Positions 627 through 53,165 of a stretch of DNA of 64,000 nucleotides are shown in pieces. Under the pieces are notes generated by a model. The model was not told where the DNA came from, did no database searches, and was given only the letters and a program-made list of their open reading frames with translations. The stretch lies in assembly GCF_963678975.1 (NCBI RefSeq), contig NC_089274.1:2716001-2780000 (forward strand). The letters run 5' to 3'. The stretch is from Dysidea avara. Lineage: Eukaryota; Porifera; Demospongiae; Dictyoceratida; Dysideidae. Numbering within the stretch: the stretch's first letter is position 1; each line of letters opens with the position of its first letter. Position numbers and translations under genes: made by a program.

Positions 627-746
627 TCAGATGCAAACCTTTCAAAGGTAGTAGCTAACAGCATGTTCTTCATTTGGAAACACTAGATCATGAAAGTTCT
701 GGGATAGAAGATGAATCTTTTGGTTCACCAGTGACCTTCAAGGGAT

Positions 747-1190: not shown

Positions 1191-1232
1191 ACAAGTAACT
1201 AAACGTTTACGCTATCATCAGGGGGTACTGCT

Positions 1233-1453
1233 ACTGCTAATTGCACGAATCTTTAAAAATTGCGTGACGCATGCGTGTATGCGCACACAAGAATTAAAAA
1301 CGTTTTGTTTCACGGAACAAGTTGCTTACATTAGGAATCTTAGTGAGTCCCCGACATCAGCAACATGTTCCGTGAAACAAAATGTTCTTAAATCTTGTGT
1401 GCGCACACACGCATGCGTCACGCAATTTTTAAAGGTTCGTGCAATCAGCAGTA
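1233..1453. mobile_element. Fold-back (palindromic) MITE, copy 1
   Basis: Both arms (about 90 bp) match as an inverted repeat. They include TTGCACGAA, TTTAAAAATTGCGTGACG, CATGCGTG, TGCGCACACAAGA and TTGTTTCACGGAACA. The short centre holds GTCCCCGACATC. No coding potential. A second copy lies at 1722-1929. Confidence 0.75.
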
Positions 1454-1692
1454 CTGCGGTTTTCCAAGTTCTTGCAATGCAAAGCGTCATGCGCTAATAT
1501 TGTGTCAGTATGCGCAGTTCTTTAACTACACCTGTAATGTTCTGAGGCTGTCGATTTGTATGCGTAGGCATGCTTGAAGTCCTGTGAGTTGGTAACCGTC
1601 ACTGAAAATCCACTGTTCCACAACTGCGCACGTACATGCTTGTATAGCGCATGACGCTTTGCATTGCAAGAACTTGGAAAACTGCAGTACAC
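1452..1692. repeat. Inverted repeat between the two fold-back copies
   Basis: Arms at about 1452-1496 and 1647-1692 (TTCCAAGTTCTTGCAATGCA, AAGCGTCATGCGC) are reverse complements around a 150 bp centre. With the flanking fold-back copies this makes three adjacent palindromes. Confidence 0.7.
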
Positions 1693-1721
1693 GCAATTTT
1701 TAAAGATTGGTGCAATCTGCA

Positions 1722-1968
1722 GTATTGCTGATTGCACGAACCTTTAAAAATTGCGTGACGCATGCGTGTGTGCGCACACAAGATTTAAAAGCATTTTGCT
1801 TCACGGAACAGGCTGCTGATGTCGGGGACTAAGATTCCCAACTTAAGAAACTTGTTCCGTGAAACAAAACATTAAAGTATTTTGTGCGCATACACGCAAT
1901 TTTTAAAAATTTGTGCAATCAGCAGTACTGCGTCACGCAATTTTTAAAGATTCGCGCAATCAGCAGTA
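1722..1968. mobile_element. Fold-back MITE, copy 2, with a duplicated end
   Basis: This is the same family as 1233-1453. The arms are 1724-1825 and 1843-1929. The right terminal motif (CACGCAATTTTTAAA ... GCAATCAGCAGTA) is repeated once more at 1934-1968, so the right end is duplicated. Confidence 0.7.
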
Positions 1969-1976
1969 GGTCATGA

Positions 1977-3780: not shown

Positions 3781-3836
3781 ATAATGACCATCCTGCAGGA
3801 TGGTCATGACCTACTGCGTATTCTGCAGTAGGTCAT
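3758..3836. repeat. Cluster of near-perfect palindromes
   Basis: CTGCAGGATGGTCAT (3758-3772) is repeated inverted at 3784-3798. 3784-3807 is itself a perfect 24 bp palindrome centred on CTGCAG. 3807-3836 forms a third stem (GACCTACTGC / GCAGTAGGTC). The cluster marks the 5' break of the retroelement. Confidence 0.75.
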
Positions 3837-4159
3837 GGTGCGTAACGCGTAATGAATATTGTGCAAGCATTCACGTGAGCTGAATAGTCCCGTACAAAAA
3901 GTAGGGCGCGTTGGGGCGCGATACTTATTTCAGTTTGCTGTTTACAATGGTGGGAGTCACGATTATAAAAACGATGTCATTATGGAGTAGAGTTACAGTG
4001 ATGGCGATGTGTGGTGGCCACGACTTTCATGTTAACAGTAACCGATGATTACTTGTTTATCATCAGTGATTACTTGTTGTGTGATTTATTACTTTCAACA
4101 GATAGTATGATCATGTTTAATAAAAATATTTTTATTAGTGCTTCGTAGTGGACGTGGCC
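3837..4159. other. Intergenic, no gene seen
   Basis: AT-rich sequence with a short GC-richer part (GGGCGCGTTGGGGCGCG near 3903). No open frame or repeat that I could recognise. Confidence 0.4.
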
Positions 4160-4167
4160 TTGTCCTA

Positions 4168-4669
4168 GTCTCGTGCCCAGCTGGGCTCGCGCTAATGCGC
4201 AAACACCGTCTGGTGACAATCTTGGGCCCGGAAGTGCCATCCAGCCAAAATATTGGCTGGGCAATCAGACTCGGAGTTGCATAATCGCATGAATATATTG
4301 GAAGTTGATGAAAAAGCAGATTATTTAAAGCCGTTTTATTAGAAGTATTCATCTAGGTTGTTCAAGAAGTTTTGTTGTCAAGTTGTGTCTTCCGATCTCA
4401 CCTTATAAAACTGAAGAGAGGTGACTCGACGTTTCACCAGTAATGAAATACTATCCTCTACCTCGTCTGCTAATAAGAGATCGCGTCTAGAAAATTGTCC
4501 TTTTCTGAGTTTTATTTTATTCCTAGCCATTTTCGAATGGTTTTCACTGTTTTAAAGCGATTATGCAACTCCTCGATTCTGATTGGCCAGCCAATATTTT
4601 GGTTGGATAGCACTTCCGGGCCCAAGAAACTCGAGCATTTTCACGCATTAGCGCGAGCCCGGACCAGTC
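4168..4669. mobile_element. hAT-like MITE with 8 bp target duplication
   Basis: The 502 bp element is flanked by perfect duplications TTGTCCTA (4160-4167, 4670-4677). The ends are long imperfect inverted repeats of about 110 bp sharing CTCGCGCTAATGCG, TTGGGCCCGGAAGTGC and AAAATATTGGCTGG. There is no transposase frame. An 8 bp duplication fits hAT; the superfamily is inferred from that alone. Confidence 0.75.
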
Positions 4670-4677
4670 TTGTCCTA

Positions 4678-5059
4678 TTCTTTATTATTAATTACTAGGC
4701 AGGCAGCACAGCTGGTTTGCCTAGGATGTAAATCACAGAACACGTTACAATCAATAAGTTAAAGTATGTATGCTATATTGTGTATGTTACAGTTACTAAT
4801 AATAAACAGTGCAATCCCCCGGCTACCACTCTGAACCAGGGGGAGAATAAGAATGACAACAATTGGGTGGGCAGAGGATATTGGCTGACAGACCATAGAT
4901 ATACTAGCCCCAGAGGTTAGTATATTTATGGACAGACTCACCCAACTTTAGATAGGCCATCTGTGTTAGGACTTTGCTAAGCACAACCTCTGATGGCACA
5001 GTGTGTGCAATGTATTAAATTGTGTCTTCAAGTTATATAGCTACTGAACTATGTGGCAT
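4678..5059. other. Intergenic with a 39 bp palindrome at 4893-4931
   Basis: 4893-4931 reads CCATAGATATACTAGCCCC then the inverted GGTTAGTATATTTATGG. It is an intact form of the palindrome that is split by an insertion at 5060-5428. The rest shows no gene. Confidence 0.6.
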
Positions 5060-8081: not shown

Positions 8082-8851
8082 ATCAAGACTCACAGTAGTG
8101 AGTCGCGCGGCCAGTAAAGCAGAAACACGCGCCGCAGACAATAAATGACGCGACCACTACGTGAGGATTTTACAAGAAGGAACGTTGTCAAATTCGGCCT
8201 TCCTGTAATCCACCCGTCACTTACGCTATCCCTCTGAAACTCTGGAGTTGAACTCATCATGTCACTAGTAACTACCACACAAGCAGTGAAGCAAATCCAT
8301 GCCGATTGTTTCGTGATCGAGCCATCATCGAGGTTGCCGACATCAAAGGGGAAGTTTCATTTTTTTTAATCGCATGCGGTTAGACGCAACCGCAGGTGTA
8401 TGCCTTGCGTTCCTTTGTGCATTCCGAACATTCATCGCCCTGTTATCGCTTCAGTATTCACTCAATCACCTCAAGATTCACATCATCGATTTCACCATAC
8501 ATGATTACCCTACAGTCGTGATTTCAGCATCAAACGAAGTTTCAGTCGTCCTCAGTCGACCTAGAGGCCAAATACAAATCCCAGATTGTTGTTTTCCGCA
8601 ATACTCGCTTGGCATGTAGGGCAATGTGTCTTTAAACTGTTCTGAAAGTTTCGTTCAGATTGAAACATTTGTTTTCGAGAATGGCTAGTTTGAAATTTGA
8701 ATTTAGTCGCCCCCACGTCATTTGCTCTCTAAGAATTTTACTCGGAATTTAAAGAATGACGCAGAGCACAACTGCGGTCACTGGGTATTGATGAACTGGC
8801 GCTCTATGTAGTTAATCAGTACATATAGCCACCAAGAAGTGTGCTGCCATA

Positions 8852-10028
8852 CAGAGGCATAGCTAAGGGGGGGCAAGGGGGGGCATTTGCCCCCCCATCA
8901 CTAAATGATTTTTTTAAAACCTTCGTCACAAGTTTACCAGTATTAAACCGACACGCAAATGCCTGTAAATTATGTACACTACTACGCGGTATCACCAGGG
9001 GTTGTTAGTGAATGCGCACACACAACATTCAACTCGCTAGTGAATCCATCGAACGAAAATATTAGAGACATACTTCTATATTTAGCCTAGATTACTCGCG
9101 TGATAGAACATTTTTGAATCTAAAAAGAGTGACCCGTTTCTCCTCGGCAGGAGTCACAACTCACAAGTGACAAAGGAGACCAGATGAGGCTATGAACCTA
9201 CTGCCTACGAGGTGATAAAGCGTTAGCTAAATAAATGTACCATTATCGAGTCGATCACACTGGACCTTTGTACGTACGGCAGTGCAGTCTGTTTTTACTT
9301 TGTCAGTCAGTCAGGTGGATCAGTCAAGCTTACAAGTTCTGCTAGCAAGACAGGTGGGATTTCATGCAATACATGGCATTTGAATTTCGCCGAGTGAAGT
9401 AAATGAATACGTCATCCTGTCAGCAGTGTGCTAGAACTGCAGCACAGGCTGTGGCTAACGTTTGTAATTGCACTAAAGTATTAGCTCTACCGGACTGTGG
9501 ATGAATTTGTTGGAGTACAGTTGTGGCACGTGCGATGATGCTCGACGAATGTAGCTACCTCGATTAGAAGTAGTCTGGCGCCGCCCGCCCCTTCGCATAA
9601 AGTAAGGGTCTGCAGATACTAAATCATTTCTAGCGCCCAGATTCGGCGCTAGCCAATTAGTGCATGCCAATGACGTTCACACAGAAATCGCCTTGGCAAC
9701 ACAATGCTTTTGTTCGAATTGAAGTGCAATTATCTGACGTAACAAGCATTACGTGCGCTGTCTAATTGAATTCCTTTTGAAATGATTAGGTATTTGTATT
9801 TCACCAGACCCTTACTTTTTGCGAAGGGGCGGGCGGCGCCAGACTAGATTGGAAGCAGTCAGTACTGAAATAGTTACGTAGCTAGTTATTTAAGCTGTAA
9901 TAATACAACACCGTATGTTGGCTAGCCCACCATTGGGTTATTAGCCTTTTTTGCAATCATGAATGATTTTGAATGTTTCGTGGGGGCATGCCTGCCCCTC
10001 CATCACCTTCTGGCTAGCTACGCCCCTG
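8852..10028. mobile_element. hAT-like element (1177 bp) inserted in unit A
   Basis: Perfect 8 bp duplication CTGCCATA (8844-8851, 10029-10036). Termini are CAGAGGCATAGCTA and TAGCTACGCCCCTG. Unit B keeps the uninterrupted site at 29155-29170, which proves the insertion. The left end runs into G-runs (AGGGGGGGCAAGGGGGGGC). A smaller element (9571-9846) is nested within. Confidence 0.85.
9571..9846. mobile_element. Mutator/Merlin-like MITE, 9 bp duplication, copy 1
   Basis: TIRs begin TAGTCTGGCGCCGCCCGCCC and extend about 40 bp. The flanks are GATTAGAAG and GATTGGAAG (9 bp, one change). The second copy at 22259-22542 has a perfect 9 bp duplication. A duplication of 9 bp fits Mutator or Merlin. 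The centre contains CGCTAGCC- and TGACGTAACA-type words but no frame. Confidence 0.8.
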
Positions 10029-10031
10029 CTG

Positions 10032-10064
10032 CCATAGATTATAGTCCATAGATATAATCTATGG
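10032..10064. repeat. 33 bp palindrome CCATAGATTATA...
   Basis: CCATAGATTATA and TATAATCTATGG flank a 9 bp centre. Unit B has the same at 29162-29194. It resembles the palindromes at 4893 and 5060. Confidence 0.6.
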
Positions 10065-11156
10065 TGCTGCATACCATCCTTAATTCGTTTTGAAATTAGT
10101 CCTCTAAGGGCGCGGCTTAAAGAATGACACAAGAGTACAACTGCGATTACCAGTTGTTGATACAAGCTGTGAGTAATTAGCACATGTAGCTAGCTTAAAA
10201 GGAAGTGTGCAAAATCGCCTAATACAATTGTCACCATGCATTATTGCATTTTATAGCACCCCCACACAAAATTACGCATATAATTACAACATACAGAGGA
10301 GACACATGAATACCAAACACTTTTCACAACAATAATGTAAGAATTGTACAATAATGACTGTAATATAACTGCTATGCAAATGTTTTCCAGTGGCCCACCA
10401 TGGTAGCAAGTCTCACATGACGGCATGTATATTCATCCAAACACAATGGGAGTAACGAGTAAGTATGATGACAACAAGTTGGTATGACTCCATTTGTAGA
10501 ATCCAGATGAGTGGGTGTGGCTCCAGTATGTCTAAACAGTTAACAAACATTCCTGTTATAAATACGTGCTAGAGTTGCAATATAATAGTATAGTATTTAA
10601 ATGCAATAATACATAGTCTCCATTGCATCACTATCAAACGACACTAAGTGGAGGATATTGTTGCATCTCTAGTATGTACACTCTATCAGTACAACCTATC
10701 TTAATGGCCACTAGTATAGAAAGACAACCACTCTTGAAAAGCCAATTCCAATTGAGAATTTATACACTGTTACCTGCTGAATGAGTGAAGGTGGCAATAA
10801 ACAAGTTCCACCGTAATTTATACACGTGATCTGATCCTATATATTCTGTCAGTGGATGAGATCCACTTGGCCAGGACAAAATGTGACTCAAGTGCCCTGG
10901 ATGATCCATACTCAACCAACTTATGACCCAGTGGCACAATGGAACTGATTATTTATAGAGAATACAATTATATTTATTTCTAAGATGTGTGGATGTGTAG
11001 ACACATTACAACACATTACATGTACATACAAGACATGCTACGTACTGTTTTAGCATTTCAAGTCACCACATTATACACGTACCAGTCAACAATGCTTCAT
11101 AGTGCCCATCAGTAAACCAGAAGAAAAGTTACGAAAAATAAAAATTCACATAAGTA

Positions 11157-11332
11157 CAATGAAACCTCATTAATATGGCAGGCTGTGGGACCAAAAAATT
11201 TGGCCTGAATAACAAGGTGGCTTTATTAATGAGGTCATAAGTAATGCTTAGCTATATTTGGGACCTACTAGAGGTGGCCAATATAATGAGGTGGTCTTAT
11301 TAAAGAGGTGGCCACTAAGTGAGGTTTCACTG
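11157..11332. mobile_element. pogo/Tigger-like MITE
   Basis: Flanked by TA on both sides. The termini CAATGAAACCTCATTAAT and (inverted) CAGTGAAACCTCAC are typical of pogo-group mariner elements. In unit B all but the first few bases of the MITE and the sequence beyond are missing, so B carries a deletion that starts inside it. Confidence 0.75.
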
Positions 11333-12935
11333 TACATATAGTTCACAATATTAATGGTTAACAATATACACTGAAACTTGCAGGTCACTCTTGTGGAAGA
11401 TTGCTCTCTACACAAAATGACACATTCAGAGATTGTATTTAGATGGATGATGCAGTAACGCATTGTGACTTCAATACTCGTGATGTGTCACTGCTAGGCA
11501 GCAACCATATACACGGCACTGCCACATCGCACTTGCTCGCACACACAATTTTGCTAAAGATTTTACAAATTGATAATTAAGGGGTGTGGCAACTAGCTGT
11601 TTCGCTCGCAAGACTGTGTGGCAGCTATTTCCCTTCTGTACAAGTGGCCACCAAGACAGGTCCACTGTGGATGAAAGCCAGGCATTAGATATTTGGTATT
11701 TCATGTGTTGAAGACATTCCAGGGCTTCTGGTAGTCTCAAATCTCACCACAGTTTAACTCAGGCAGTGTTGTGGTCACCACTAAACTATACTGGAATGCT
11801 GTGTTATGTTCATCTTATGCTTGGCTACTATATTGTAGAACTGAAATGGATACTCTGAAAAATATATCCTATGGATAATGACTTCATCACTTTCTTCATC
11901 AGGACCAATAGTGAAACTTTTTACACTTGGGGCTGACAGTCAACTGCCTATGTCTGAAGCAGTGCTTTTGGTGCTCTAACAGATTGGCTGCCCCCTTGCT
12001 GCCAGCACTCACTGTCTCATACGCTGTCATACACTAAATCCATCTCTATAGCCAGTTAGAACAGCATGCTTCTTACCTTTTTTTAAGGCCGCATAACGCA
12101 GCTACCTCTTTAAAAGGCAAGGTTAGAAAATTTTGTCCCTACGGCCTGAATAATGACCAGTTTTCACTGTACTATTAGTGATTAGTGATCATCGGGGATT
12201 ATTTATTAAGATACTAAGATATACAAACGCTACAACCTCTAAATATAGCAGTAAATTTTTTACCCTGGTCCAATGTCTGGTAATAATCGTGACTTCGTGA
12301 GAGACTCTACTGTGACAAATACATGTTTATCATGATATGTGCTAATCGCCTTTTTACAATTAAGTTTTACAACACAAATACATGTATAGTTAAACTCACC
12401 AATTGCGACTAAATCCCTTCAACACGAAAAGACAAGTAATGAGACAACCTTGGAGACAACAGCCACACAAGCCTATTCTGGTGCGTTTATTTAGTAGTAA
12501 TATAAATTTTAAAGGCGTTTATTTACAACAGGACATAATTACGCGCCCCTCTATTGTCTCTGTACATACTTGCCTTTTCTTTACTATTCTCATTTTCATT
12601 TCACAAGATCTCTTGGCAAGGGCGTAGCTTCTTCACTTGAATTAGTCAATGCTTGAAGTAGATCGAGATACTCTAATAGAACAGTCACATTTCTACAAGT
12701 ACCATAATTTTATATTGTAAAGTCTGTAAGTAGCTAGTAATTTTAAACTATACAATCCAATGCTAAGCAGAAGTTGTAACTATGCTAAATATTGATTGCT
12801 GTGTTACAGCTATTTTGTGACTGCTCTAATAGAGTATCTTGATCGTTTCAATGCAGTACAAGATGAAAGGCAAAGTGTTGTTAAGGGTTTACTAGTTAAA
12901 ATGGGTACTAGTTGACTGCAGTTACATGCCACTAA

Positions 12936-13115
12936 CAGGGCCGTCCAGAGAAATTAGAGGGCCCGGGAAAAGAGTTAAAGAGGGGCCCAGGGGCAAGGAA
13001 GGGTCTAGATCCTGACTGTTCTATTAGAGTATATCGATCTTTCTTTAAACAGGTATTCAAGTGGCCCCTTTCGGGCTGTGGTAGGGGGCAAAATACTCCA
13101 ATGTGGGCGGCCCTG
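12936..13115. mobile_element. hAT-like MITE, CAGGGCCGYCCA ends, copy in unit A
   Basis: Perfect duplication GCCACTAA (12928-12935, 13116-13123). It carries the CTCTAATAGAG-type motif at 13014-13038. Unit B holds the same insertion at 31682-31870, so it was present before the two units separated. Confidence 0.85.
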
Positions 13116-13235
13116 GCCACTAAAATTTTTTATATTTTAATATTCTGTCACTGTAATCTGGGGTTTCTGTCAAAACCATGGAAACTCACCTACTGTTATC
13201 AACAGTGCATTGCTTATTCTAACAAAAGGTATTGA

Positions 13236-14113
13236 AATCCCATCCAAAAACAGCTTATAGCTGTAAAAAAAGTGCGCGTCCAAGTAAAGCAGAGTTAACT
13301 GCGACAAAAATTAATGATATCAAAATGCGGCCATGTGCGAGGTGTGCAAGTTGTAAAATTAATATGTGACCGGGCCTGCGATAATAGGGCATGTGGGCAC
13401 ATGATTTTTGCCTAATTTTTCACACTTTCATCACTCATAACATTTTGTACCATTATGCTATGGCATTGCAATTTTCAGCTCTGAGTAAACATTTAATTGG
13501 CATCATGATGCAAGTTACAGAATGGAAATATACATTTCCAATACTGCGATATAACCTGTAGAGTGATGGAGTGTACTTTGTGCCCACATGCCCTGTTTTC
13601 GCAGGCCCGGTCACATATTAGCTAATCAGATAATACAATGTTATTGTTAAAGTGTTAATGAGAACTATGTGATGCTGCTAGTTTTTAAGTGCATGAGCAT
13701 CTTCATAAATGCCACATAAATTTAATTCTCAATGTGTATAGATTCTCTGTTAGTAATAAATAGTTTGAGTTTGGCCGCCTTTCCTGTATACAGCAATGCT
13801 ACGAACAAAGGAAAGGTGGCCAAACTCAAACTATTTATTACTAACAGAGAATCTATACACATTGCTTTATTGAGAATTAAATTTATGTGGCATTTATGAA
13901 GATGCTCACACACTAAAAAACTAGCAGCATCACATAGTTCTCATTAACACTTTAACAATAACATTGTATTATCTGATTAGCTAATATTAATTTTACAACT
14001 TGCACACCTCGCATATGGCCGCATTATGATATCATTACTTTTTGTCGCAGTTAACTCTGCTTTACTTGGACGCGCACTTTTTTTACAGCTATAAGCTGTT
14101 TTTGGATGGGATT
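13236..14113. repeat. Fold-back 5' region of unit A
   Basis: The terminal sequence of unit A is repeated inverted 0.88 kb inside the element. The two arms read AATCCCATCC-AAAAACAGC ... and meet near 13786-13808. The left arm is interrupted by the TA element 13365-13615; the right arm and the whole of unit B's fold-back are uninterrupted. Confidence 0.8.
13365..13615. mobile_element. TGTGACC-type TIR element with TA duplication, copy 1
   Basis: Termini TGTGACCGGGCCTGCG and CGCAGGCCCGGTCACA, flanked by TA. Adjoining inner repeats are GGGCATGTGGGCAC and GTGCCCACATGCCC. Absent from the same place in unit B (near 32120). Related elements lie at 41636, 52145 and 56538. The TA duplication suggests the mariner group. 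Confidence 0.8.
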
Positions 14114-28404: not shown

Positions 28405-31400
28405 TCAAGACTCACGGTAGTGAGTTGCGGCCAGTAAAGCAGAAACGCGCGCCGCAGACAATAAATGACGCGACCACTACGTGAGGATTTTACAGGAACG
28501 AACGTTGTCAAATTCGGCCGTCCTGTAACTCACCCGCCACTTACGCTATCCCTCTGAAACTCTTAGAGTTGAACTCATCGTGTCACTAGTAACTACCACA
28601 CAAGCAGTGAAGCAAATCCATGCCGATTGTTTCGTGATCGAGATTGCCGACATCAAAGGGGAAGTTTCATTTTTTTTTTTTATCGCATGCGGTTAGACGC
28701 AACCGCAGGTGTATGCCTTGCGTTCCTTTGTGCATTCCAAACATTGATTGCCCTGCTATCGCTTCAGTATTCACTCAATCGCCTCAAGATTCACATCGTC
28801 GATTTCACCATACATGATTATCCTACAGTCGTAATTTCAGCACCAAACGAAGTTTCAGTCGTCCTCAGTCTACCTAGAGGCCAAATACAAAACCCAGATT
28901 GTTGTTTTCCGCAATACTCGCTTGGCATGTAGGGCAATGTGTCTTTAAACTGTTCTAAAAGTTTCGTTTAGATTGAAACATATGTTTTCGAGAATGGCTA
29001 GTTTGAAATTTGAATTTAGTCGCCCCCACGTAATTTGCTCTCTCTAAAAATTTTACTCGGAATTTAAAGAATGACGCAGAGCACAACTGCGGTCACTGGG
29101 TATTGATGAACTGGCACTCTATGTAGTTAATCAGTGCATAAAGCCACAAAGAAGTGTGTTGCCATAGATTATAGTCCACAGATATAATCTATGGTGCTGC
29201 ATACCATCGTTGGGCGTTTTTAACAAATTTAGTCGCCCCCACCGTGACGTAATTTGTCCTCTAAGGGTGCAGCTTAAAGAATGACACAATACAACTGCGG
29301 TTACCAGATTTTGACACAAGCTGCGAGTAATTAGCACATGTAGCTAGCCAATTATCACCATGCATTATTACATTTTATAGCACCCCCACACAAAAATTAT
29401 ACATGTAATTACAACATACAGAGGACACATGAATGCCAAACACTTTTCATAACAATAATGTAAGAATTGTACAATAATGACTGTAATATAACAGCTATGA
29501 AATGTTTTCCAGTGGCCCGCCATGGTAGCAAGTCTCACATGACGGCATGTATATTCATCCAATCCAAGCACAATGGGAGTAACACGTAAGTATGATGACA
29601 AGTTGGTATGCCTCCATTTGTAGAATTTAGATGAGTGGGTGTGGCTCCAGTATGTCTAAACAGTTAACAAACATTCTTGTTATAAATACCTGCTAGAGTT
29701 GCAATATAATAGCATAGTATTTAAATGCAACAATACATAGTCTCCATTGCATCACTATCAAACGACACTAAGTGGAGGATATTGTTGCATCTCTAGTATG
29801 TACACTCTATCAGTACAACCTGTCTTAATGGCCACTAGTATAGAAAGACAACCACTCTTGAAAAGCCAATTCCAATTGAGAATTTATACACTGTTACCTG
29901 CTTATTGAGTGAAGGTGGCAATAAACAAGTTCCACCGTAATTTATATACATGATCTGATCTGTATATTTTGTCAGTGGATGAGATCCACTTGGCTAGGAC
30001 AAAATGTGACCCAAATGTCCTGGATGATCCATACTCAACCCACTTATGACCCAGTGGCACAATGGAACTGAGTATAGAGAATACATTTATATTTATTTCT
30101 AAGATGTGTGGATGTGTGGACACATTACAACACATTACATGTGCATACAAGACATGCTACGTACTGTTTTCAAGTCACTACATTATGTACGGACCAGTCA
30201 ACAATGCTTCATAGTGCCCATCAGTAAACCTGAAGAAAAGTTACGAAAAGTAAAATTCACATAAGTACAATGCTAGGCAGCAACCATATACATGGCACTG
30301 CCAATGCACAACATCGCACTTGCTTGTACACACAATTTTGTTCAAGATTTTACAAATTGATAATGAAGGGGTGTGGAAACTAGCTGCTCGCTCGAAAGAC
30401 TGTGTGGCAGCTGTTTCCCTTCTGTAGAAGTGGCCACCAAGACAGGTCCACTGTGGGTGAAAGCCAGGCATTAGATATTTGGTATTTCATGTGTTGAAGG
30501 CATTCCAAGGCTTCCGGTAGTCTCAAATCTCACCACAGTTTAACTCAGGAAGTGTTGTGGTCACCACTAAACCACTGAAATGCTGTGTTATGTGAAAAAT
30601 ATATCCTATGGATAATGACTTCATCACTTTCTTCATCAGGAGCTTATAAGGACCAATAGTGAAACTTTTTACACTTTGGGCTGACAGCCAACTGCCTAAG
30701 TCTGAAGCAGTGCCTTTGGTGCTCTAACAGATTGGCTGCCCCCTTGCTGCCAGCACTCACTGTCTCATACGTTGTCACACACTAAATCCATCTCTATAGC
30801 CAGTTAGAACAGTATGCTTCTTACCTTTTTTTAAGGTGCAAAATGCAGCCACCTCTTTAAAAAGCTAGGTCAGAAAATTTTTGTCCCTACGGCCTGAATA
30901 CTGACCAGCTTTCACTGTACTATTAGTGATTAGTGATCATGGAGGATTATTTATTAAGATACTAAGATATACAAACGCTACAACCTCTAAATATAGCAGT
31001 AAATTTTTTACCCTGGTCCAATGTCTGGTAATAATCGTGACTTCGTGAGAGACTCTACTGTGACAAATACATGTTTATCATGATATGTGCTAATCGCCTT
31101 TTTACAATTAAGTTTTACAACACAAATACATGTATAATTAAACTCACCAATTGTGACTAAATCCCTTCAACACGAAAAGACAAGTAATAAGACAACCTTG
31201 GAGACAACAGCCTCACAAGCCTATTCTGGTGCGCTTATTTAGTAGTAATATAAATTTTAAAGGCGTTTATTTACAACAGGACATAATTATGTGCCCCTCT
31301 ATTGTCTCTGTACATACTTGCCTTTTCTTTACTATTCTCATTTCATTTCACAAGATCTCTTGGCAGGGGCGTAGCTTCTTCACTTGAATTAGTCAATGCT

Positions 31401-32618
31401 TGAAGTAGATCGAGATACTCTAATAGAACAGTCACATTTCTACAAGTGCCATATTTTTATATTGTAAAGTCTGTAAGTAGCTAGTAATTTAAACTATACA
31501 ATCCAATGCTAAGCAGAAGTTGTAACTATGTTAAATATTGATTGCAGTGTTACAGCTATTTTGTGACTGCTCTAATAGAGTATTTTGATCGTTTTAATGC
31601 AGTACAAGATGAAAGGCAAAGTGTTATTAAGAGTTTACTAGTTAAAATGGGTGTTAGTTGACTGCAGTTGCATGCCACTAACAGGGCCGCCCAGAGAAAT
31701 TAGGGGGCCCAGGGAAAAGAGTTAAAGAGGGGCCCAGGGGCAAGGAAGGGTCTAGATCCTGACTGCTCTATTAGAGTATATCGATCTTTCTTTAAACAGG
31801 CAATCAAGGGGCCCCTTTTGGGCTGGGGCAGGGGGAAAATACCCCCCCCCCCCCCATGTGGGCGGCCCTGGCCACTAAAATTACAGTTATATTTTAATAT
31901 TCTGTCACTGTAATCTGGGGTTTCTGTCAAAACCATGGAAACTCACCTACTGTTATCAACAGTGCATTGCTTATTCTAACAAAAAGTATTGAAATCCCAT
32001 ACAAAAACAGCTTATAGCTGTAAAAAAGTGCGCGTCCAAGTAAAGCAGAGTTAACTGCGACTAAAAGTAATGATATCATAATGTGGCCATGTACGAGGTG
32101 TGCAAGTTGTAAAATTCATATTAGCTAATCAGATAATACAATGTTATTGTTAAAGTGTTAATGAGAACTATGTGATGCTGCTAGTTTATAAGTGTGTGAG
32201 CATCTTCATAAATACCACATAAATTTAATTCTCAATAAAGCAATGTGTATAGATTCTCTGATAGCAATAAATAGTTTGAGTTTGGCCGCCTTTCCTGTAT
32301 ACGGCAATGCTACGAACAAAGGAAAGGTGGCCAAACTCAAACTATTTATTGCTATCAGAGAATTTATACACATTGCTTTATTGAGAATTAAATTTGTGTG
32401 GCATTTATGAAGATGCTCACACACTTATAAACTGGCAGCACATAGTTCTCATTAGCACTTTAACAATAACATTGTATTATCTGATTAGCTAATGTGAATT
32501 TTACAACTTGCACACCTCGTACATGGCCGCATTATGATATCATTACTTTTTGTCGCAGTTAACTCTGCTTTACTTGGACGCGGCCTTTTTTACAGCTATA
32601 AGCTGTTCTTGGATGGGA
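28405..32618 (-). mobile_element. Helitron-like unit B (4.2 kb)
   Basis: On the minus strand it begins TCCCATCCAAGAACAGC (32618) and ends with the hairpin ACTCAC-TACC-GTGAGT and TTGA at 28405, between A (32619) and T (28404). It matches unit A over its full length at a few percent divergence but lacks A's later insertions. It carries hAT-like copy 31682-31870 and three CTCTAATAGAG motifs (31408, 31564, 31760). No protein-coding frame holds up; an 81-codon frame shared with A has more amino-acid than silent changes. Confidence 0.7.
31682..31870. mobile_element. hAT-like MITE, CAGGGCCGCCCA ends, copy in unit B
   Basis: Duplication GCCACTAA at 31674-31681 and 31871-31878, as in unit A. The C-run near the right end has grown to about 14. 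Confidence 0.85.
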
Positions 32619-41166: not shown

Positions 41167-41494
41167 TCTAATCCAAAACAGCCAAGCTGTAAAAAAAGTG
41201 TGCGGCCCTCAGAAAGGCTATGGTGAAAAAAGATGTGAAATCCAAGGTGGCGGCCAAGAAATGGCTGTGATGGTAGGTTAATGGTAAAAATTTTAATAAC
41301 AACAATTCAGGTGAATTTGGTGCCGCTTGGTCTTGGCACAAAATTCACCTGAGTTGTCGTTATTAAAATTTTTACCATTAACCTACCATCACAGCCATTT
41401 CTTGGCCGCCACCTTGGATTTCACATCTTTTTTCACCATAGCCTTTCTGAGGGCCGCACACTTTTTTTACAGCTTGGCTGTTTTGGATTAGATT
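41167..41494. repeat. Fold-back 5' region of unit L
   Basis: The 5' end is repeated inverted 0.3 kb inside. Arms contain AATCCAAAACAGCCAAGCTG, AAAAAAAGTGTGCGGCCCTC and ACCTACCATCACAGCCATTT. The first 45 bases resemble those of units A and B. Confidence 0.85.
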
Positions 41495-41635
41495 TCATTT
41501 CTTTTTGCATTTGTATACCCCAAAGCCGGCCTATGGCCAGCTTTGGGACTTTTTTAACCTAAGAAAAGATGAAGTAGATGTACTTTAAATATTTTATCAG
41601 TAAATGTACAAATTATATATACTGTATAATACATA

Positions 41636-41874
41636 TGTGACCGGATTTGCGAAAAGGGGTCTTCAACACACATCCAATTTGCCAACTTTGACAATTGATA
41701 ACTTCAGATTGGAAAGAGCTATTGCCTTGAAGTTTGGACAGTGGTGAGCACCACTATAGCTGAATAAGTGGTGACATTTTCAGGTTAATATGTTACTTGA
41801 ACACTGAGGTATGGTCTCCAACGTTTACGGAATTGGATGTGTGTGGAAGACCCCTTTTCGCAAATCCGGTCACA
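41636..41874. mobile_element. TGTGACC-type TIR element with TA duplication, copy 2
   Basis: Ends TGTGACCGGATTTGCGAAAA and its inverse, flanked by TA. Subterminal GGGGTCTTC and ACACACATCCAATT are also inverted. The same element sits at the matching place in unit R. Confidence 0.85.
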
Positions 41875-41894
41875 TAATATTATATTGATTACAG

Positions 41895-44800
41895 AAATCT
41901 CCATGGTAGTTTCTTTGTAACTGAACACTCTACAAGGTGACTTCTTCTAATTGCTCTCTCTACAGGGTGAATTGTTTGTAGCTGAACGATCTACAAGGTA
42001 ACTTCTTCTAGCTGATCTCTCTACAGGGTGATGTGTTTGTAGCTGAATTCTGTATAGGTGATTTGTTTGCAGCTGAGCTCTTTACAGAATGGTTTCTTTG
42101 TAGCTGAACTCTCTAAAAGGTAACTTCTTCTAACTGATCTTTCTACAGGGCAATTTGTTTCTGGCAGAATTTTCTAAATGGTGATTTCTTTGCAGCTCAA
42201 TTCTCTACATGGTGGTTTCTTTGTAGCTGAACTCTCTACAAGGTAATTTCTTCTAGCTGATCTCTCTACAGGGAGATTTGTTTGTAGCTGAACTATCTAC
42301 AAGGTAACTTCTTATAGCTGATCTCTCTACAGGGTGATTTGTTCGTAGTTGAATTCTGTACAGGTGATTTGTTTGCAGCTGAGCTCTTTACAAAATGGTT
42401 TCTTTGTAGCTGAACTTTCTACAAGGTAACTTCTTCTAACTGATCTTTCTACAGGGTGATTTGTTTGTAGCTGATCTATCTACAAGGTAATTTCTTCTAG
42501 CTGATCTCTCTACGGGGTGATTTGTTTGTAGCTGAATTCTGTACAAGTGATTTGTTTGCAGCTGAGCTCTTTACAGAATGGTTTCTTTGTAGCTGAACTC
42601 TCTACAGGGTGATCTGTTTGTAGCTGAAATCCCTACAAGGTAACTTCTTTTAGCTGATCTTTCTACAGGGCAATTTGTTTGTAGCTGAGTTCTCTACAGG
42701 GTGTTTGTTTGCAGCTGAATTCTCTACATGGTGGTTTCTTTATAGCTGAACTCTCTACAAGGTGACTTCTTCTAGCTGATCTCTCTACAGGGTGATTTGT
42801 TTGTAGCTGAACTCTCTACAGGTGATTTGTTTGTAGCTGAACTCTCTACAAGGCGATACTTCTAGGTGATCTCTCTACAGGATTCCTTGTTTCTAACTGA
42901 ACTCTCAACAGGGTGATCTGTTCATAGCTGAACTTTCTACTGGGTGATTTGTTTGCAGCTGAACTCTCTAAATGGTGGTTTCTTTGTAGCTGAACTCTCT
43001 ACAACGTGACTTCTTCTAGCTGAACTCTCTACAAGGTGACTTGTTTCTAGCTGATCTCTCTACAGGGTGACTTGTTTCTAGCTGAACTCTCTACAGGTGA
43101 TTTGTTTGTAGCTGAACTCTCTACATGGTGGTTTCGTTGTAGCTGAACTCTCTACAAGGTAACTTCTTCTAGCTGATCTTTTTACACTGCATATTTGTTT
43201 GTAGCTGAGTTCTCTACAGGGTGATTTGTTTGCAGCTGAACTCTCTACATGGGAGTTTCATTGTAGCTGAACTCTCTACAATGTGACTTCTTCTAGCTGA
43301 ACTCTCTACAGGGTGACTTGTTTATAGCTGAACTCTCTATAGGTGATTTGTTTGCAGCTGAACTCTCTACATGGTGGTTTCTTTGTAGCTGAACTCTCTA
43401 CAAGGTAACTTCTTCTAGCCGATCTTTCTACAAGGTGATTGAGTTTTTTGCAGCTGAACTCTTTACATGGTGGTTGCTTTGTAGCTGAACTCTCTAAAAG
43501 GTGACTTCTTCTAGCTGAACTCTCTACAGGATGATTTGTTTGCAGCTGAACTCTCTACGTGGTAGTTTCTTTGTAGCTGAACTCTCTACAATGTGACTTC
43601 TTCTAGCTGAACTCTCTACAGGGTGACTTGTTTTTAGCTGATCTCTCTACAGGGTGACTTGTTTCTAGCTGAACTCTCTACAGGTGATTTGTTTGCAGCT
43701 GAACTCTCTACATGGTGGTTTCTTTGTAGCTGAACTCTCTACAAGGTAACTTCTTCTATCTGATCTTTCTACAGGGTGATTTGTTTGTAGCTGAATTCTC
43801 TACAGGGTGATTTATTTGCAGCTTAACTCTCTACAAGGTGACTTCTTCTAGCTGAACTCTCAACAGAGTGATTGATTTTTTTTGCAGCTGAACTCTCTAC
43901 ATGGTGGTTTCTTTGTAACTGAACTCTCTACAGGGTGATTTGTTTGTAGCTGAACTCTCTACAGGGTGATTTGTTTATCATTAATTTTATTTCAGTTGTT
44001 CCTTATGTGGGGCAGGATATTGTTGTTTTGATTTGAGGTGGGCCGATGGTTTGTAATGCGACTTTAAATAGGTTTTTTAGTTTACATTACTTGTTTCCTT
44101 TTGTTTTGTCCTTCTTGGCGTTAGTTCATTTGCATTTTTTGCATAAATTGGGGTCGAATAATCCTATGGATTTGCCTTCTGATGTAGAGAAAATACCGTT
44201 TCATCGTTATTATACGGTAAAGGATTTATCGGGAAATATGTTATTTTTTGTTTTGTTTGTTTTTATTGTTTATTTTTTTCCGGATTATTTGGGTGATGCC
44301 GAGAATTTTAAGGAGGCCGACATTTTAGTTACTCCTATTCATATTAAACCGGAATGGTATTTTTTATTTATGTATGCCATTTTGCGATCTATTCCGAAAC
44401 TCTCTACAGGGTGATCTGTTCATAGCTGAACTCCCTATAAGGTAACTTCTTCTAGCTAATCTTTCTACAGGGCGATTTGTTTGTAGCTGAGTTCTCTACA
44501 GGGTGATTTGTTTGCAGCTGAACTCTACATGGTAGTTTCTTTGTAGCTCTACAATGTGACTTCTTCTAGCTGAACTCTCTACAAGGTGACTTGTTTCTAG
44601 CTGATCTCTCTACAGGGTGACTTGTTTCTAGCTGAACATTCTACAGGTGATTTGTTTGCAGCTGAACTCTCTACATGGTTTATTTCTTTGTAACTGAACT
44701 CCCTGCAAGGTGACTTCTTCTAGCTGATCTCTCTACAGGGAGATTTGTTTGTAGCTTAACTCTCTACAGGTGATTTGTTTGCAGCTGAACTCTCTACATG

Positions 44801-45943
44801 ATGGTTTCTTTGTAGCTGAACTCTCTACAAGGTAATTTCTTCTAGCTGATCTCTCTACAGGCCGATTTGTTTGTAGCTGAACTCTCTACATGATAGTTTC
44901 TTTGTAGCTGAACTCTCTACAAGGTGATTTCTTCTATAGCTGATCTTTCTACAGGTTGATTTGTTTGTACCTGAACTATCTACATGATTGTTTCTTTGTA
45001 GCTGAACTCTCTACAAGGTAACTTCTTCTAGCTGATCTCTCTACAGGACAATTTGTTTGTACCTGAACTCTCACATGATTGCTTCTTTGAAGCTGAACTC
45101 TCTACAAGGTGATTTCTTCTAGCTGATCTTTCTACAGGGTGATTTGTTTGTAGCAGAACTCTCTACAAGGAAACTTCTTCTAGCTGATCTCTCTACAGGG
45201 AGATTTGTTTGTAGCTGAACTCTCTATACATGATTTGTTTGCGGCTGAATTCTCTACATGATGGTTTCTTTGTAGCTGAACTCTCTACAAGGTAACTTCT
45301 TCTAGCTGATCTCTTTACAGGGTGAATTGTTTGTAGCTGAACGATCTACAAGGTATCTTCTTCTAACTGATCTCTCTACAGGGTGATTTGTCTGTAGCTG
45401 AACTCTCTACAAGGAAACCTTTTTAACTGAGCTCTGTACAGGGTGAATTGTTTGTAGCTGAACTATCTACAAGGTAACTTCTTCTAGCTGATCTCTCTAC
45501 AGGATGATTTGTTTGTAGCTGAACTATCTACAAGGTAACTTCTTCTAGCTGATCTCTCTACAGGGTGATTTGTTTGTAGCTGAATTCTGTATAGGTGATT
45601 TGTTTGCAGCTGAGCTCTTTACAGAATGGTTTCTTTGTAGCTGAACTCTCTACAAGGTAACTTCTTCTAGCTGATGTATCTACAGGGTCACTAGTTTGTA
45701 GCTGAATTCTCTACATGGTGGTTTCTTTGTAACTGAACTATCTATAAGGTGACATCTTCTAGCTGATCTTTCAACAGGGTGATTTGTTTGTAACTGAACT
45801 CTCTACAAGAAAACTTCTTCTAACTGATGTCTGAACAGGGTGAATTGTTTGTAGCTGAACTCTCTACAGGGTGATTTGTTTGTAGCTGATCTCTATACAG
45901 GTTACTTATTTCTAACTGATCTCTTGAATTCTGTTCAGGGTGA
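41895..45943. repeat. Minisatellite, 30 bp unit, about 120 copies
   Basis: Alternating variants of one 30 bp unit: TTTGTAGCTGAACTCTCTAC with AAGGTGACTTC, and TTCTAGCTGATCTCTCTACA with GGGTGATTTG. Pairs form a 60-61 bp higher-order unit. The length is a multiple of three, so long frames rich in (A)ELSTG-like words arise without meaning. Interrupted at 43977-44399 by mitochondrial DNA. Confidence 0.95.
43977..44399 (+). pseudogene. cob: Nuclear mitochondrial insert: cytochrome b fragment
   Basis: 141 codons read without a break in genetic code 4, with TGA as Trp in IWGG (44032-44034). Recognisable cytochrome b landmarks are [43 protein letters not shown] and [23 protein letters not shown] as Arg and ATA as Ile exclude the invertebrate code 5. 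Base composition and T-rich third positions differ sharply from the surroundings. The insert replaced about 9 bp of a satellite unit (GTAGCTGAA), with a GAA microhomology at the right junction. The clean frame suggests a recent transfer. It lacks both ends of the gene and is not functional in the nucleus. Confidence 0.95.
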
Positions 45944-45956
45944 CTGCTCTATTAGG

Positions 45957-46792
45957 ATGACTGCTCTATTAGAGTATCTCGATCTCGCACTTGCTACACC
46001 AAGTTGGATTTCGTGTTATAACTCCGTGGCTTTAAGTCTGATTTTTCTACACCATTGAAGAGCCTTTCTAAGATGATAACTCCATCTGTACAGCGATTTT
46101 CAAAGCATTACCCCAAGTGGTTTATCTGGTAGGCTTGGCAAGCATAATAATAATAATAATAATAATAAAAATTAGCTAATCTCGATTGCGTAATTGTTAC
46201 ACACTGTTGATTTTTTCGCTGTATCTTCCTGGTTTTTAGCTCGATTTCTTTCAAACCACAAAAGGTTTGAGGTTCAATAGTTAACCTATTCACCCACCGA
46301 TTTTCAGCTTCTTCCCATACGCGGTTTACCCTGTAGGCGTGACAACATATTGGTGTTATTTTTCGTGCATAATCGCTCATAACTCTTTGCCTGTTTATGG
46401 TATTCCAGCCAAAGTTGGTACAGAGATGCGCCTTTATACCCCCCTTCTGTGTGCCAAATTTCAAGGCAATCGGATAACGCGTTCGCGTTTTATAGCAGTT
46501 TTTGTAAGTGTGCGAAAAGAGGAAGAAAAATAAGAAGAAAAAAAAAAAACGAAGAAACTAAGCCAATTTTTGAAGTCGCATATCTCAGGAATGCCTGAAG
46601 CGATTTCGCTTAAATTTGGAATGTGGAGTACTGAAGTTGGAGGGAATGTACACAGCAAAATTTGTCTTGTTTCATCAAGGCAGCACAGAGCTACGGAGGT
46701 GCGAAAATTGCGTTTTCTTTCTTCCTGTCAATATACTCACGGGGTTGCGCGCCGGCTTCTTGGGCCGCACGACACACTACCGTGTGTCTTGA
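45957..46792 (+). repeat. Conserved 3' region of unit L
   Basis: From the CTCTATTAGAG motif (45957-45986) to the terminal hairpin. It matches 49510-50350 inverted at high identity. It has an (AAT)n run at 46146, an A-rich tract near 46535, and two similar sub-blocks (CGATTTCGCTTAAATTTGGA and the inverse of CCTTGAAATTTGGCACAC). Open frames of about 60-160 codons occur on both strands, but none is convincing. Confidence 0.75.
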
Positions 46793-49285: not shown

Positions 49286-49507
49286 TCAGCTATAAATTAC
49301 TTGATCATTCCATGTAAGATGCTCATCGATAGTTATGCTAAGATATTGTGTTGATGTTGTTTGCTTGATTTCTTGTCCTTGAATATAGTAATGCATAAGT
49401 ATGGGGTTAGTTTTATTGGATACTCTACTCACATTTTGTTGGATCAAAGTACATATTCCATCATTTCGCCCATTCTTTGGGAGAATTAAGATCTGCTTGT
49501 AAATTGT
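49286..49507 (-). pseudogene. LINE RT fragment, downstream half of a split LINE
   Basis: The minus strand reads LQADLNSPKEWAK, stop, WNMYFDPTKCE, then after a frameshift TNPILMHYYIQGQEIK and YLSITIDEHLTWNDQV. This is the RT thumb region of a CR1/Jockey-like LINE. The other half lies at 52851-53165. Removing unit R at A|T joins them in frame (VDDYHNLQADLNS). Confidence 0.85.
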
Positions 49508-49509
49508 GA

Positions 49510-50350
49510 TCAAGACACACGGTAGTGTGTCGTGCGGCCCAAGAAGCCGGCGCGCAACCCCGTGAGTATATTGACAGGAAGAAACAAAACGCAATTTTCG
49601 CATCTCTGTAGCTCTGTGCTGCCTTGATGAAACAAGACAAATTTTGCTGTGTACATTCCCTCCACCTTCAGCACTCCACATTCCAAATTTGAGCGAAATC
49701 GCTTCAGGCATTCCTGAGATATGCGACTTCAAAAATTGGCTTAGTTTCTTCGTTTTTTTTTTTTTCTTCTTATTTTTCTTCCTCTTTTCGCACACTTACA
49801 AAAACTGCTATAAAACGCGAACGCGTTATCCGATTGCCTTGAAATTTGGCACACAGAAGGGGGGGTATAAAGGCGCATCTCGGTACCAACTTTGGCTGGA
49901 ATACCATAAACAGACAAAGAGTTATGAGCGATTATGCACGAAAAATAACACCAATATGTTGTCACGCCTACAGGGTAAACCGCGTATGGGAAGAAGCTGA
50001 AAATCGGTGGGTGAATAGGTTAACTATTGAACCTCAAACCTTTTGTGGTTTGAAAGAAATCGAGCTAAAACCCAGGAAGATACAGCGAAAAAATCAACAG
50101 TGTGTAACAATTATGCAATCGAGATTAGCTAATTTTTTTATTTTATTATTATTATTATTATTATGCTTGCCACGCCTACCAGATAAACCACTCGGGGTAA
50201 TGCTTTGAAAATCGCTGTACAGATGGAGTTATCATCTTAGAAAGGCTCTTCAATGGTGTAGAAGAATCAGACTTAAAGCCACGGAGTTATAACACGAAAT
50301 CCAACTTGGTGTAGCAAGTGCGAGATCGAGATACTCTAATAGAGCAGTCA
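49510..50350 (-). repeat. Conserved 3' region of unit R
   Basis: Inverted match of 45957-46792, ending at the motif 50323-50350 (a second partial motif at 50352-50367). Confidence 0.75.
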
Positions 50351-50365
50351 TCCTAATAGAGCAGT

Positions 50366-52128
50366 CACCCTGAACAGAATTCAAGAGATCAGTTAGAAAT
50401 AAGTAACCTGTATAGAGATCAGCTACAAACAAATCACCCTGTAGAGAGTTCAGCTACAAACAATTCACCCTGTTCAGACATCAGTTAGAAGAAGTTTTCT
50501 TGTAGAGAGTTCAGTTACAAACAAATCACCCTGTTGAAAGATCAGCTAGAAGATGTCACCTTGTAGATAGTTCAGTTACAAAGAAACCACCATGTAGAGA
50601 ATTCAGCTACAAACTAGTGACCCTGTAGATACATCAGCTAGAAGAAGTTACCTTGTAGAGAGTTCAGCTACAAAGAAACCATTTTGTAAAGAGCTCAGCT
50701 GCAAACAAATCACCTATACAGAATTCAGCTACAAACAAATCATCCTGTAGAGAGATCAGCTAGAAGAAGTTACCTTGTAGATAGTTCAGCTACAAACAAT
50801 TCACCCTGTACAGAGCTCAGTTAAAAGAGGTTTCCTTGTAGAAAGTTCAGCTACAAACAAATCACCCTGTAGAGAGATAAGTAAGAAGAAGTTACCTTGT
50901 AGATCGTTCAGCTACAAACAATTCACCCTGTAAAGAGATCAACTAGAAGAAGTTACCTTGTAGAGAGTTCAGCTACAAAGAAACCATCATGTAGAGAATT
51001 CAGCTGCAAACAAATCATGTATAGAGAGTTCAGCTACAAACAAATCTCCCTGTAGAGAGTTCAGCTAGAAGAAGTTTCCTTGTAGAGAGTTCTGCTACAA
51101 ACAAATCACCCTGTAGAAAGATCAGCTAGAAGAAATCACCTTGTAGAGAGTTCAGCTTCAAAGAAACAATCATGTGAGAGTTCAGGTACAAACAAATTGT
51201 CCTGTAGAGAGATCAGCTAGAAGAAGTTACCTTGTAGAGAGTTCAGCTACAAAGAAACCATCATGTAGATAGTTCAGGTACAAACAAATCACCCTGTAGA
51301 AAGATCAGCTATAGAAGAAATCACCTTGTAGAGAGTTCAGCTACAAAGAATCTATCATGTAGAGAGTTCAACTACAACCAAATCACCCTGTAGAAAGATC
51401 AGCTATAGAAGAAATCACCTTGTAGAGAGTTCAGCTACAAAGAAACCATCATGTAGAGAGTTCAGCTGCAAACAAATCACCTGTAGAGAGTTAAGCTACA
51501 AACAAATCTCCCTGTAGAGAGATCAGCTAGAAGAAGTCACCTTGCAGGGAGTTCAGTTACAAAGAATTAAACCATGTAGAGAGTTCAGCTGCAAACAAAT
51601 CACCTGTAGAGAGATCAGCTAGAAACAAGTCACCTTGTAGAGAGTTCAGCTAGAAGAAGTCACATTGTAGAGCTACAAAGAAACTACCATGTAGAGTTCA
51701 GCTGCAAACAAATCACCCTGTAGAGAACTCAGCTACAAACAAATCGCCCTGTAGAAAGATTAGCTAGAAGAAGTTACCTTATAGGGAGTTCAGCTATGAA
51801 CAGATCACCCTGTAGAGAGTTCAGCTACAAACAAATCACCCTGTAGAGAGTTAAGTTACAAAGAAACCACCATGTAGAGAGTTCAGCTGCAAAAAAATCA
51901 ATCACTCTGTAGAGAGTTCAGCTAGAAGAAGTCACCTTGTAGAGAGTTAAGCTGCAAATAAATCACCCTGTACAGAATTCAGCTACAAACAAATCACCCT
52001 GTAGAAAGATCAGCTAGAAGAAGTTACCTTGTAGATCATTCAGCTACAAACAATTGACCCTGTAGAGAGAGCAATTAGAAGAAGTCACCATGTAGAGTGT
52101 TCAGTTACAAAGAAACCACCATGGAGAT
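50366..52128. repeat. Minisatellite of unit R, 30 bp unit, about 58 copies
   Basis: Inverse of the array in unit L (TCAGCTACAAACAAATCACC and CTGTAGAGAG-type words). 1.76 kb. Confidence 0.95.
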
Positions 52129-52144
52129 TTCTGTAATCAATATA

Positions 52145-52383
52145 TGTGACCGGATTTGCGAAAAGGGGTCTTCCACACACATCCAATTCCGTAAACGTTG
52201 GAGATCATAACTCAGTGTTCAAGTAACATATTAACCTGAAAATTTCACCATGTATTCAGCTATAGTGGTGCTCACCACTGCCCAAATATCAAGGCAATAG
52301 CTCTTTCCAATCTGAAGTTATCAATTGTCAAAGTTGGCAAATTGGATGTGTGTGGAAGACCCCTTTTCGCAAATGCGGTCAAA
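52145..52383. mobile_element. TGTGACC-type TIR element with TA duplication, copy 3
   Basis: Partner of 41636-41874 in unit R; the right end has small changes (GCGGTCAAA). Confidence 0.8.
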
Positions 52384-52530
52384 TATGTATTATACAGTAT
52401 ATATAATTTGTACATTTACTGATAAAATATTTAAAGTACATCTACTTCATCTTTTCTTCTTCCTGTAGCAAAGAAAAAAACGTAGGTTAAAAAAGTCCCA
52501 AAGCTGGTATACAAATACAAAAAGAAATGA

Positions 52531-52850
52531 AATCTAATCCAAAACAGCCAAGCTGTAAAAAAAGTGTGCGGCCCTCAGAAAGGCTATGGTGAAAAAAGAT
52601 GTGAAATCCAAGGTGGCCCAAGAAATGGCTGTGATGGTAGGTTAATGGTAAAAATTTTAATAATGACAATTTAGGTAAATTTTGTGAAGAGCCACAAAAA
52701 TTCACCTGAATTGTCTTTATTAAAATTTTTACCATTAACCTACCATCACAGCCATTTCTTGGCCGCCACCTTGGATTTCACATCTTTTTTCACCATAGCC
52801 TTTCTGAGGGCCGCACACTTTTTTTACAGCTTGGCTGTTTTGGATTAGAT
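52531..52850. repeat. Fold-back 5' region of unit R
   Basis: Inverted arms as in unit L, slightly shorter. Confidence 0.85.
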
Positions 52851-53165
52851 AGTCATCTACTGTTGTGTAAAGCAAAACAGTTTACTGACGGTTGTGTAAA
52901 ACATAAGAAAAGTAAGGGCCCCAAGATAGAGCCTTGTGGTATCCCAGAGCTACTTCAGCTGGATTACCGTGATGACCTCCAACAACAACTTGTTGTTTCT
53001 CTTAGAAAGAAAATCAGTTGGCCATGACAATAGTTGCCCACAAATACCATGATATTTAGTTTGTGCAATAAAAGGTTGCGATCCACTTTATCAAAAGCTT
53101 TAGAAAAGTCCAGGAACATAACATCAGTTTGTAAGTCATCATTCATATTCTTGAATAACCTGATA
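52851..53165 (-). pseudogene. LINE RT fragment, upstream half of a split LINE
   Basis: The minus strand reads TDVMFLDFSKAFDKVDRNLL, a frameshift, then SERN/FLRETT-like and a degenerate GIPQGSILGPLLFL. This is the RT palm of a CR1/Jockey-like LINE. It ends at 52851, where unit R was inserted, and continues at 49507. The FADD region seems deleted. Confidence 0.8.

Follow-up and report, generated by a model that had tools for sequence, protein, structure and literature searches.

Canonical Helitrons (Helitron1) start with 5'-TC, end in CTRR, insert between A and T (A^T, where ^ marks a junction) and carry a palindrome of 16-20 nt, separated from the 3' end by about 10-12 nt. Helraiser has a 3' hairpin, which has been shown to act as a stop signal, set off by a spacer of about 11 nt (PMC4778049). 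Helitron2 elements (Bao and Jurka 2013, PMC3627910) start with T and bear hairpins at both ends that are kept by compensatory changes, together with an asymmetric inverted repeat whose 5' copy lies inside the 5' hairpin, 0-2 bp from the 5' end, and whose 3' copy precedes the 3' hairpin at some 20-30 nt from the end; in the model proposed for them the two ends pair, and the short inverted repeat melts the 5' hairpin to end replication (PMC3627910). Their target is TTTT followed by T or C (PMC5148889). HINE elements (DINE-1 and the oyster Cg_HINE) are non-coding and reach high copy numbers, and Helentron/HINE elements combine subterminal inverted repeats, a 3' palindrome and central tandem repeats with a preference for TT targets (PMC4067079, PMC7492417). 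Here we analyzed a window of 64,000 nucleotides from the sponge Dysidea avara (RefSeq assembly GCF_963678975.1, contig NC_089274.1, positions 2,716,001 to 2,780,000), in which a 3,340-bp insert on the minus strand (49510..52849) splits a degenerate long interspersed nuclear element (LINE). The insert is most probably a recent copy of one of the host's non-autonomous Helitron-like families (rolling-circle elements of the HUH Rep/helicase type), built on the Helitron2 plan and carrying terminal signals of its own.

The break in the LINE was located as in the first-pass annotation, which had been made from the letters of the window alone. When the insert was excised in silico, GATGACTA met TCACAATT, giving VDDYHNLQADLNSPKEWA. 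Reading of the joined flanks placed the upstream part of the LINE at 52850..53165 (minus strand), with a degenerate reverse transcriptase stretch that matched RVT_1 (E 8.8e-8) and contained stops, and the downstream part, which starts with HNLQADLNSPKEWA, at 49286..49509 (minus strand). A second query there, intended to lie over the junction, gave no match. The joining proposed earlier was therefore borne out, but the continuous frame expected from it was only short, because the LINE is degenerate and carries stops. The host genome was then searched for empty sites by using the joined flanks as a query (111 nt, with the junction between query positions 33 and 34). Fifteen places were found, of which two were the window's own halves and 12 were LINE copies elsewhere that ran through the junction with both flanks. 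One of these (contig C5, query 16-55) aligned 40 target bases with 40 query bases at 90% identity, with no net gain or loss of bases at the junction. Each of the 11 others that cross it had 9 extra target bases, whose place is not visible in the alignment output; if it is the same in all copies, the extra bases would sit to the left of query position 16, in the ADD region of the reverse transcriptase, where by our reading part of the ADD box is missing from the LINE of the window. The remaining place (contig C11, query 31-111) started 3 nt before the junction and aligned 81 target bases with 81 query bases, with no net indel at the junction.

In element orientation (minus strand), the insert reads A^TCTAATCC...GTCTTGA^T. 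Among the fetched loci of this family (family 1), the window copy included, all 24 exact 5' ends were preceded by A and all 29 exact 3' ends were followed by T, counts that leave out 6/30 and 1/30 loci without the exact motif, respectively. These flanks agree with the 5'-TC start between A and T that had been read from the window. The 3' end was likewise as first described, with TTGA instead of CTRR directly after a hairpin: GACACAC-TACC-GTGTGTC (49514..49531, minus strand), identified by its fold and by covariation with a second family, is followed by the terminal TTGA (49510..49513, minus strand) and then by a genomic T. Both junctions of this copy carry ATC, and the four complete copies in the window (4/4) all share AT at their two junctions, so that the cut can slide one base either way. 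Ends at TC...TTGA without a duplication, which is the Helitron convention for placing them, and ends at C...TTG with a 2-bp AT duplication are equally compatible with these junctions. The first-pass view that insertion left no duplication thus fits, but a 2-bp duplication fits equally, in this and in the other complete copies. At the junctions of a canonical Helitron of the same genome, only a T was common to both sides. Similarity between copies stopped at the proposed ends, with no common sequence past them.

Searching the host genome with both ends recovered thousands of exact matches. The 3' end followed by T (GTGTGTCTTGAT) was found 11,309 times (171 for the reversed-pattern control) and the pattern with a base other than T in that place (GTGTGTCTTGA) 489 times (control, 359), while the 5' end pattern (ATCTAATCCAAAACAGCCAAGCTGT) was found 10,298 times with both foldback arms counted (control, 0). 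These copy numbers exclude chance. Each of the two end searches returned 40 scored places, with identities of 97-100% for the 3' end and 98-100% for the 5' end (full-length rows). From the 100 listed 3' ends, 20 of the first 50 were sampled by position; every one matched the element over at least the last 48 bp (66-96% identity) and then ran into differing flanks. Among loci picked as best hits, mean identity was 99.5% for 24 five-prime ends and 97.0% (range, 79.8-100%) for 30 three-prime ends. Family 1 has been recently active, and the sampled 3' ends show that older copies exist as well. A 20-base match in a Boseongicola metagenome-assembled genome was rejected as a chance match lying in bacterial sequence, and a search of viral_contigs gave no match.

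The window copy starts with a terminal foldback of 317 bp (52533..52849, minus strand; start 5'-TCTAATCCAAAACAGCC), the arms of which are paired over nearly their whole length. Folded as single-stranded DNA, positions 52532-52849 gave -176.2 kcal/mol, compared with -35.05 ± 4.22 in 100 shuffles. Within a foldback arm, 33 nt from the 5' end, lies the subterminal inverted repeat GTGCGGCCC (52808..52816, minus strand); it begins at nucleotide 34 of the element and returns in reverse orientation as GGGCCGCAC (49532..49540, minus strand), 23-31 nt before the 3' end, abutting the upstream side of the 3' hairpin. The score of the repeat was reached by 18 and 13 of 2,000 shuffles in the two family 1 copies of the window, and that of the different stretch which matches in the two family 2 copies by 2 and 1 of 2,000. 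Between the ends lie a second internal inverted repeat with 58-nt arms that are 88% complementary (52131..52397, minus strand) and a minisatellite core of about 56 copies of a 31-bp unit (50407..52127, minus strand). None of the seven open reading frames (ORFs) of at least 150 aa in the window lay wholly inside the element, and the six of them that were scanned had no Pfam match at E 0.01.

Two related elements in the window, which form family 2, share this plan. Copy A (8083..14111, minus strand; 6,029 bp) and copy B (28405..32618, minus strand; 4,214 bp) both begin A^TCCCATCC and end in TTGA^T after the 3' hairpin; their foldbacks measure 874 and 624 bp, respectively, the longer one apparently containing an insertion. 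The greater part of each element aligns with the other copy, and both have 5' arms that can be aligned to the family 1 arms. The 3' hairpins are GACTCAC-TACT-GTGAGTC in copy A and AACTCAC-TACC-GTGAGTC in copy B. In the family 2 hairpin core genome-wide, the paired T-A combination was found 1,159 times and the mispaired T/T and A/A combinations 13 and 14 times, a count with one pattern from which the A-T combination was left out. Family 2 thus keeps its 3' hairpin by compensatory change. A third family, with stem CAGTAC, loop TAYY and end TTTGA^T, was found at 587 places genome-wide (control, 0). Across the families the stem changes but stays paired, its loop remains TAYY and the end remains TTGA^T.

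The AT at both junctions of all four complete copies is also what would be expected of a non-autonomous cut-and-paste transposon of the DDE type that duplicates a 2-bp AT target, in which case the element itself would be CTAATCC...GTCTTG. We consider this origin unlikely. The very ends show no terminal inverted repeats, the two ends are unlike in structure (a foldback at one and a short hairpin at the other), the subterminal repeats are asymmetric, and the 3' hairpin has been kept through compensatory change. No DDE superfamily is known to make AT duplications.

Compared with the described rolling-circle groups, the element shares with canonical Helitron1 and Helraiser the 5' TC (24/24 exact 5' ends, a placement subject to the AT ambiguity), the A^T insertion site and the 3' hairpin; unlike them it lacks CTRR and the spacer of about 11 nt and has inverted repeats (PMC4778049). 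It is not a canonical Helitron, because CTRR is missing, and its other features fit the Helitron2 plan better. As in Helitron2, the element starts with T, both ends bear hairpins, compensatory changes are seen, the 5' repeat copy lies within the 5' hairpin, and the 3' copy lies upstream of the 3' hairpin at a similar distance from the end (PMC3627910); it abuts the hairpin in family 1 and lies about 8 nt away in family 2. The differences are that the 5' hairpin is a foldback of 317 bp in family 1 and of 624 and 874 bp in family 2, that the end is TTGA (PMC3627910), and that the target is A^T (PMC5148889). With HINE elements the families have in common that they are non-coding and of high copy number, and with Helentron/HINE elements the subterminal inverted repeats, 3' palindrome and central tandem repeats; the A^T target differs from TT, and the consulted parts of the HINE descriptions make no mention of a very long 5' foldback (PMC4067079, PMC7492417). 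Proto-Helentron-Pi also mixes features, in that it has a Rep of Helentron type but inserts at A^T, and has other terminal sequences (5' TT and 3' CTAG; PMC4067079), as do FoHeli1 and 2, with their non-canonical ends TCAG...ATTTT (PMC5148889). A literature search at the level of titles and abstract beginnings found no TTGA-ending Helitrons with a long foldback, which does not prove their absence. The families therefore stand outside Helitron1 (by CTRR and spacer), strict Helitron2 (by 5' repeat position and target) and Helentron (by the TT target), and we file them as Helitron-like elements with a new terminal variant that are nearest to Helitron2 and members of none of the three groups. The name Helitron-like, already used in the first-pass annotation, is well supported by the exact ends, the A^T target, the covarying 3' hairpin, the subterminal repeats and the paralogous empty sites.

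Several observations weigh against this assignment. The 3' end is TTGA and not CTRR, and the 18-nt hairpin lies 4 nt from the end rather than about 10-12 nt. The 5' repeat of family 1 lies 33 nt from the 5' end, compared with 0-2 bp in Helitron2 (PMC3627910). The best ungapped repeat of family 2 is a different stretch; its 5' copy lies about 45 nt from the 5' end, and about 8 nt separate its 3' copy from the hairpin that follows, so that the two do not abut. The AT at both junctions permits a 2-bp duplication, an exact 3' end within 12 kb was missing for 23/64 five-prime units in the surveyed part of contig C1, and none of 150 Rep matches in the host genome was tied to TTGA ends.

As a rolling-circle element, the insert would depend for its movement on the Rep/helicase of another element, acting in trans. 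This enzyme would nick at the 5' TC end beside the AT target; one strand would be peeled off, the process stalling at the 3' hairpin, the stop signal in Helraiser (PMC4778049), with a cut after TTGA, and the freed strand would be joined into a new AT site, probably by way of a circle. The two ends would pair as proposed for Helitron2 (PMC3627910). On this model the foldback and the minisatellite would be terminal structure or cargo without coding function. It is hard to see how a repeat of 9 nt would melt the nearly perfect foldback of 317 bp in the way that the Helitron2 model proposes, and the families are a difficult case for that model, which has short inverted repeats competing against the 5' hairpin. 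More tentatively, the families may form a separate terminal class with a Rep/helicase lineage of its own that reads hairpin-(TAYY loop)-TTGA at the 3' end and a WA-N5-A^T target and makes use of a very long, nearly perfect 5' foldback; this is possible but doubtful. If it is true, melting of the 5' hairpin by a short repeat to end replication would be unworkable in its simple form. Programs based on CTRR are expected to miss a family with about 11,000 3' ends (exact pattern) in a 551-Mb genome. Being young, of high copy number and covarying, it offers a natural data set for the choice of 3' end and target in Helitron-like elements.

The autonomous Rep/helicase-coding relative with these ends that the first-pass annotation had proposed to look for was sought and did not emerge from the 150 scored matches to PF14214 (Helitron Rep; 230 candidates in the host genome), many of which lie in long open frames. 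The host genome has at least 150 such Rep matches. Two of 80 listed family 1 ends had a Rep match within 40 kb, one of them 6.4 kb beyond the 3' end and the other 28 kb upstream, neither of which is where a coding partner would be expected. Such a partner may well exist unseen, because most 3' ends lie outside those listed. On contig C1, a family 3 end lay 3.3 kb downstream of a Rep match on the same strand, and for another Rep match the distance was 9.6 kb. This comparison covered 100 of the 587 family 3 places and 23 Rep matches, and left out C2:10600393 and two close neighbors of included Rep matches. With a more specific family 3 pattern (100 of 111 places listed), 1/150 Rep matches had a same-strand end within 6 kb downstream, compared with 0.07-0.09 expected by chance, which is suggestive only. 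Probes at two further Rep loci reached no end: L112 was by reading still in helicase sequence, and L113 showed no hairpin end. At the Rep loci of families A and D (L079 and L081), hairpins with CTAG^T ends were seen by eye, each in a single copy. Rep family B (C5:5450409 and C4:25129224) at first looked like the partner, because the minisatellite and the TTGA end lie downstream of the C5 Rep/helicase; it was rejected when comparison of the two copies identified it as a canonical CTAG Helitron (A^TCTATATATTAATTC...CACTAG^T), the adjoining TTGA-family copy being a separate insertion. This Helitron is about 7 kb long, encodes OTU, Rep and PIF1 helicase, and is present in two copies with 5' ends at C5:5446666 and C4:25133545.

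The presence of such canonical Rep/helicase-coding families, together with the shared 5' TC and A^T site, would also suit a Helitron1 family that had drifted to TTGA and is mobilized by one of the genome's CTAG Helitrons. That origin appears quite improbable to us. TTGA^T has been kept by at least three hairpin families and is therefore a stable signal, and the terminal sequences of the TTGA family gave no blastn match to the 5' region of family B, only TCTA being common to the two 5' ends by eye.

The internal inverted repeats, and the five-prime units without a nearby exact 3' end, could alternatively mean that the LINE gap is filled by a nest of unrelated insertions, with a foldback miniature inverted-repeat transposable element on one side and another element on the opposite side. 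This explanation is already largely refuted, and we regard it as very unlikely. The second complete family 1 copy of the window (41167..46792, plus strand; 5,626 bp, flanked by A and T) has the same order of parts, with an array of about 130 units of 31 bp at element positions 744-4735. Six further copies were read in part; all of them passed from the 5' module into the array, which varied from 2.35 to at least 3.1 kb in length, and three reached beyond it. The shared plan of family 2 argues in the same direction. Furthermore, in the first 4.85 Mb of C1, an exact 5' arm lay in the 12 kb upstream of 48/87 3' ends (mean, 12.2; maximum, 25 for shifted positions), and 28 of these 48 distances fell between 3.4 and 5.7 kb.

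Upstream of the A^T site, the Helitron-like family 1 showed a further target preference. Among 38 distinct 5' flanks, a set that includes one inner foldback junction, A stood at -7 in 33 (p 2e-13 against the flank background) and A or T stood at -8 in 37. At -7, family 2 copies A and B had A and T, respectively, by eye. IS605-type elements have a fixed tetra- or pentanucleotide target. A single-strand transposon of the Y1 HUH (IS200/IS605-like) type, which subterminal hairpins and the lack of a clear duplication might suggest, is scarcely credible given an element size of 3-6 kb and 5' flanks that keep only A at -1 and prefer A at -7.

Neighboring copies of family 1 were sometimes arranged head to tail, which counts in favor of the Helitron-like reading. 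On C1, the 5' end of a further copy, pointing the same way, began no more than about 10 nt past 2/87 3' ends (shifted-position control: mean, 0.04; at most 2). In the cases C1:4244697 and C1:4248257, L006 and L096, the gap between copies was 8-16 nt; the gaps that were read consisted of TA repeats (16 nt of TA in L006 and TATATATA in L096). A tandem duplication directly after TTGA was seen at L052 and L104; it comprises the terminal 69-71 bp of the element, beginning at a TC, and gives two consecutive 3' ends. L104, with its second 3' end, was among the 20 sampled 3' ends. At L011, a lone 17-bp terminal fragment (ACTACCGTGTGTCTTGA) was present in the flank, 156 bp past the 3' end.

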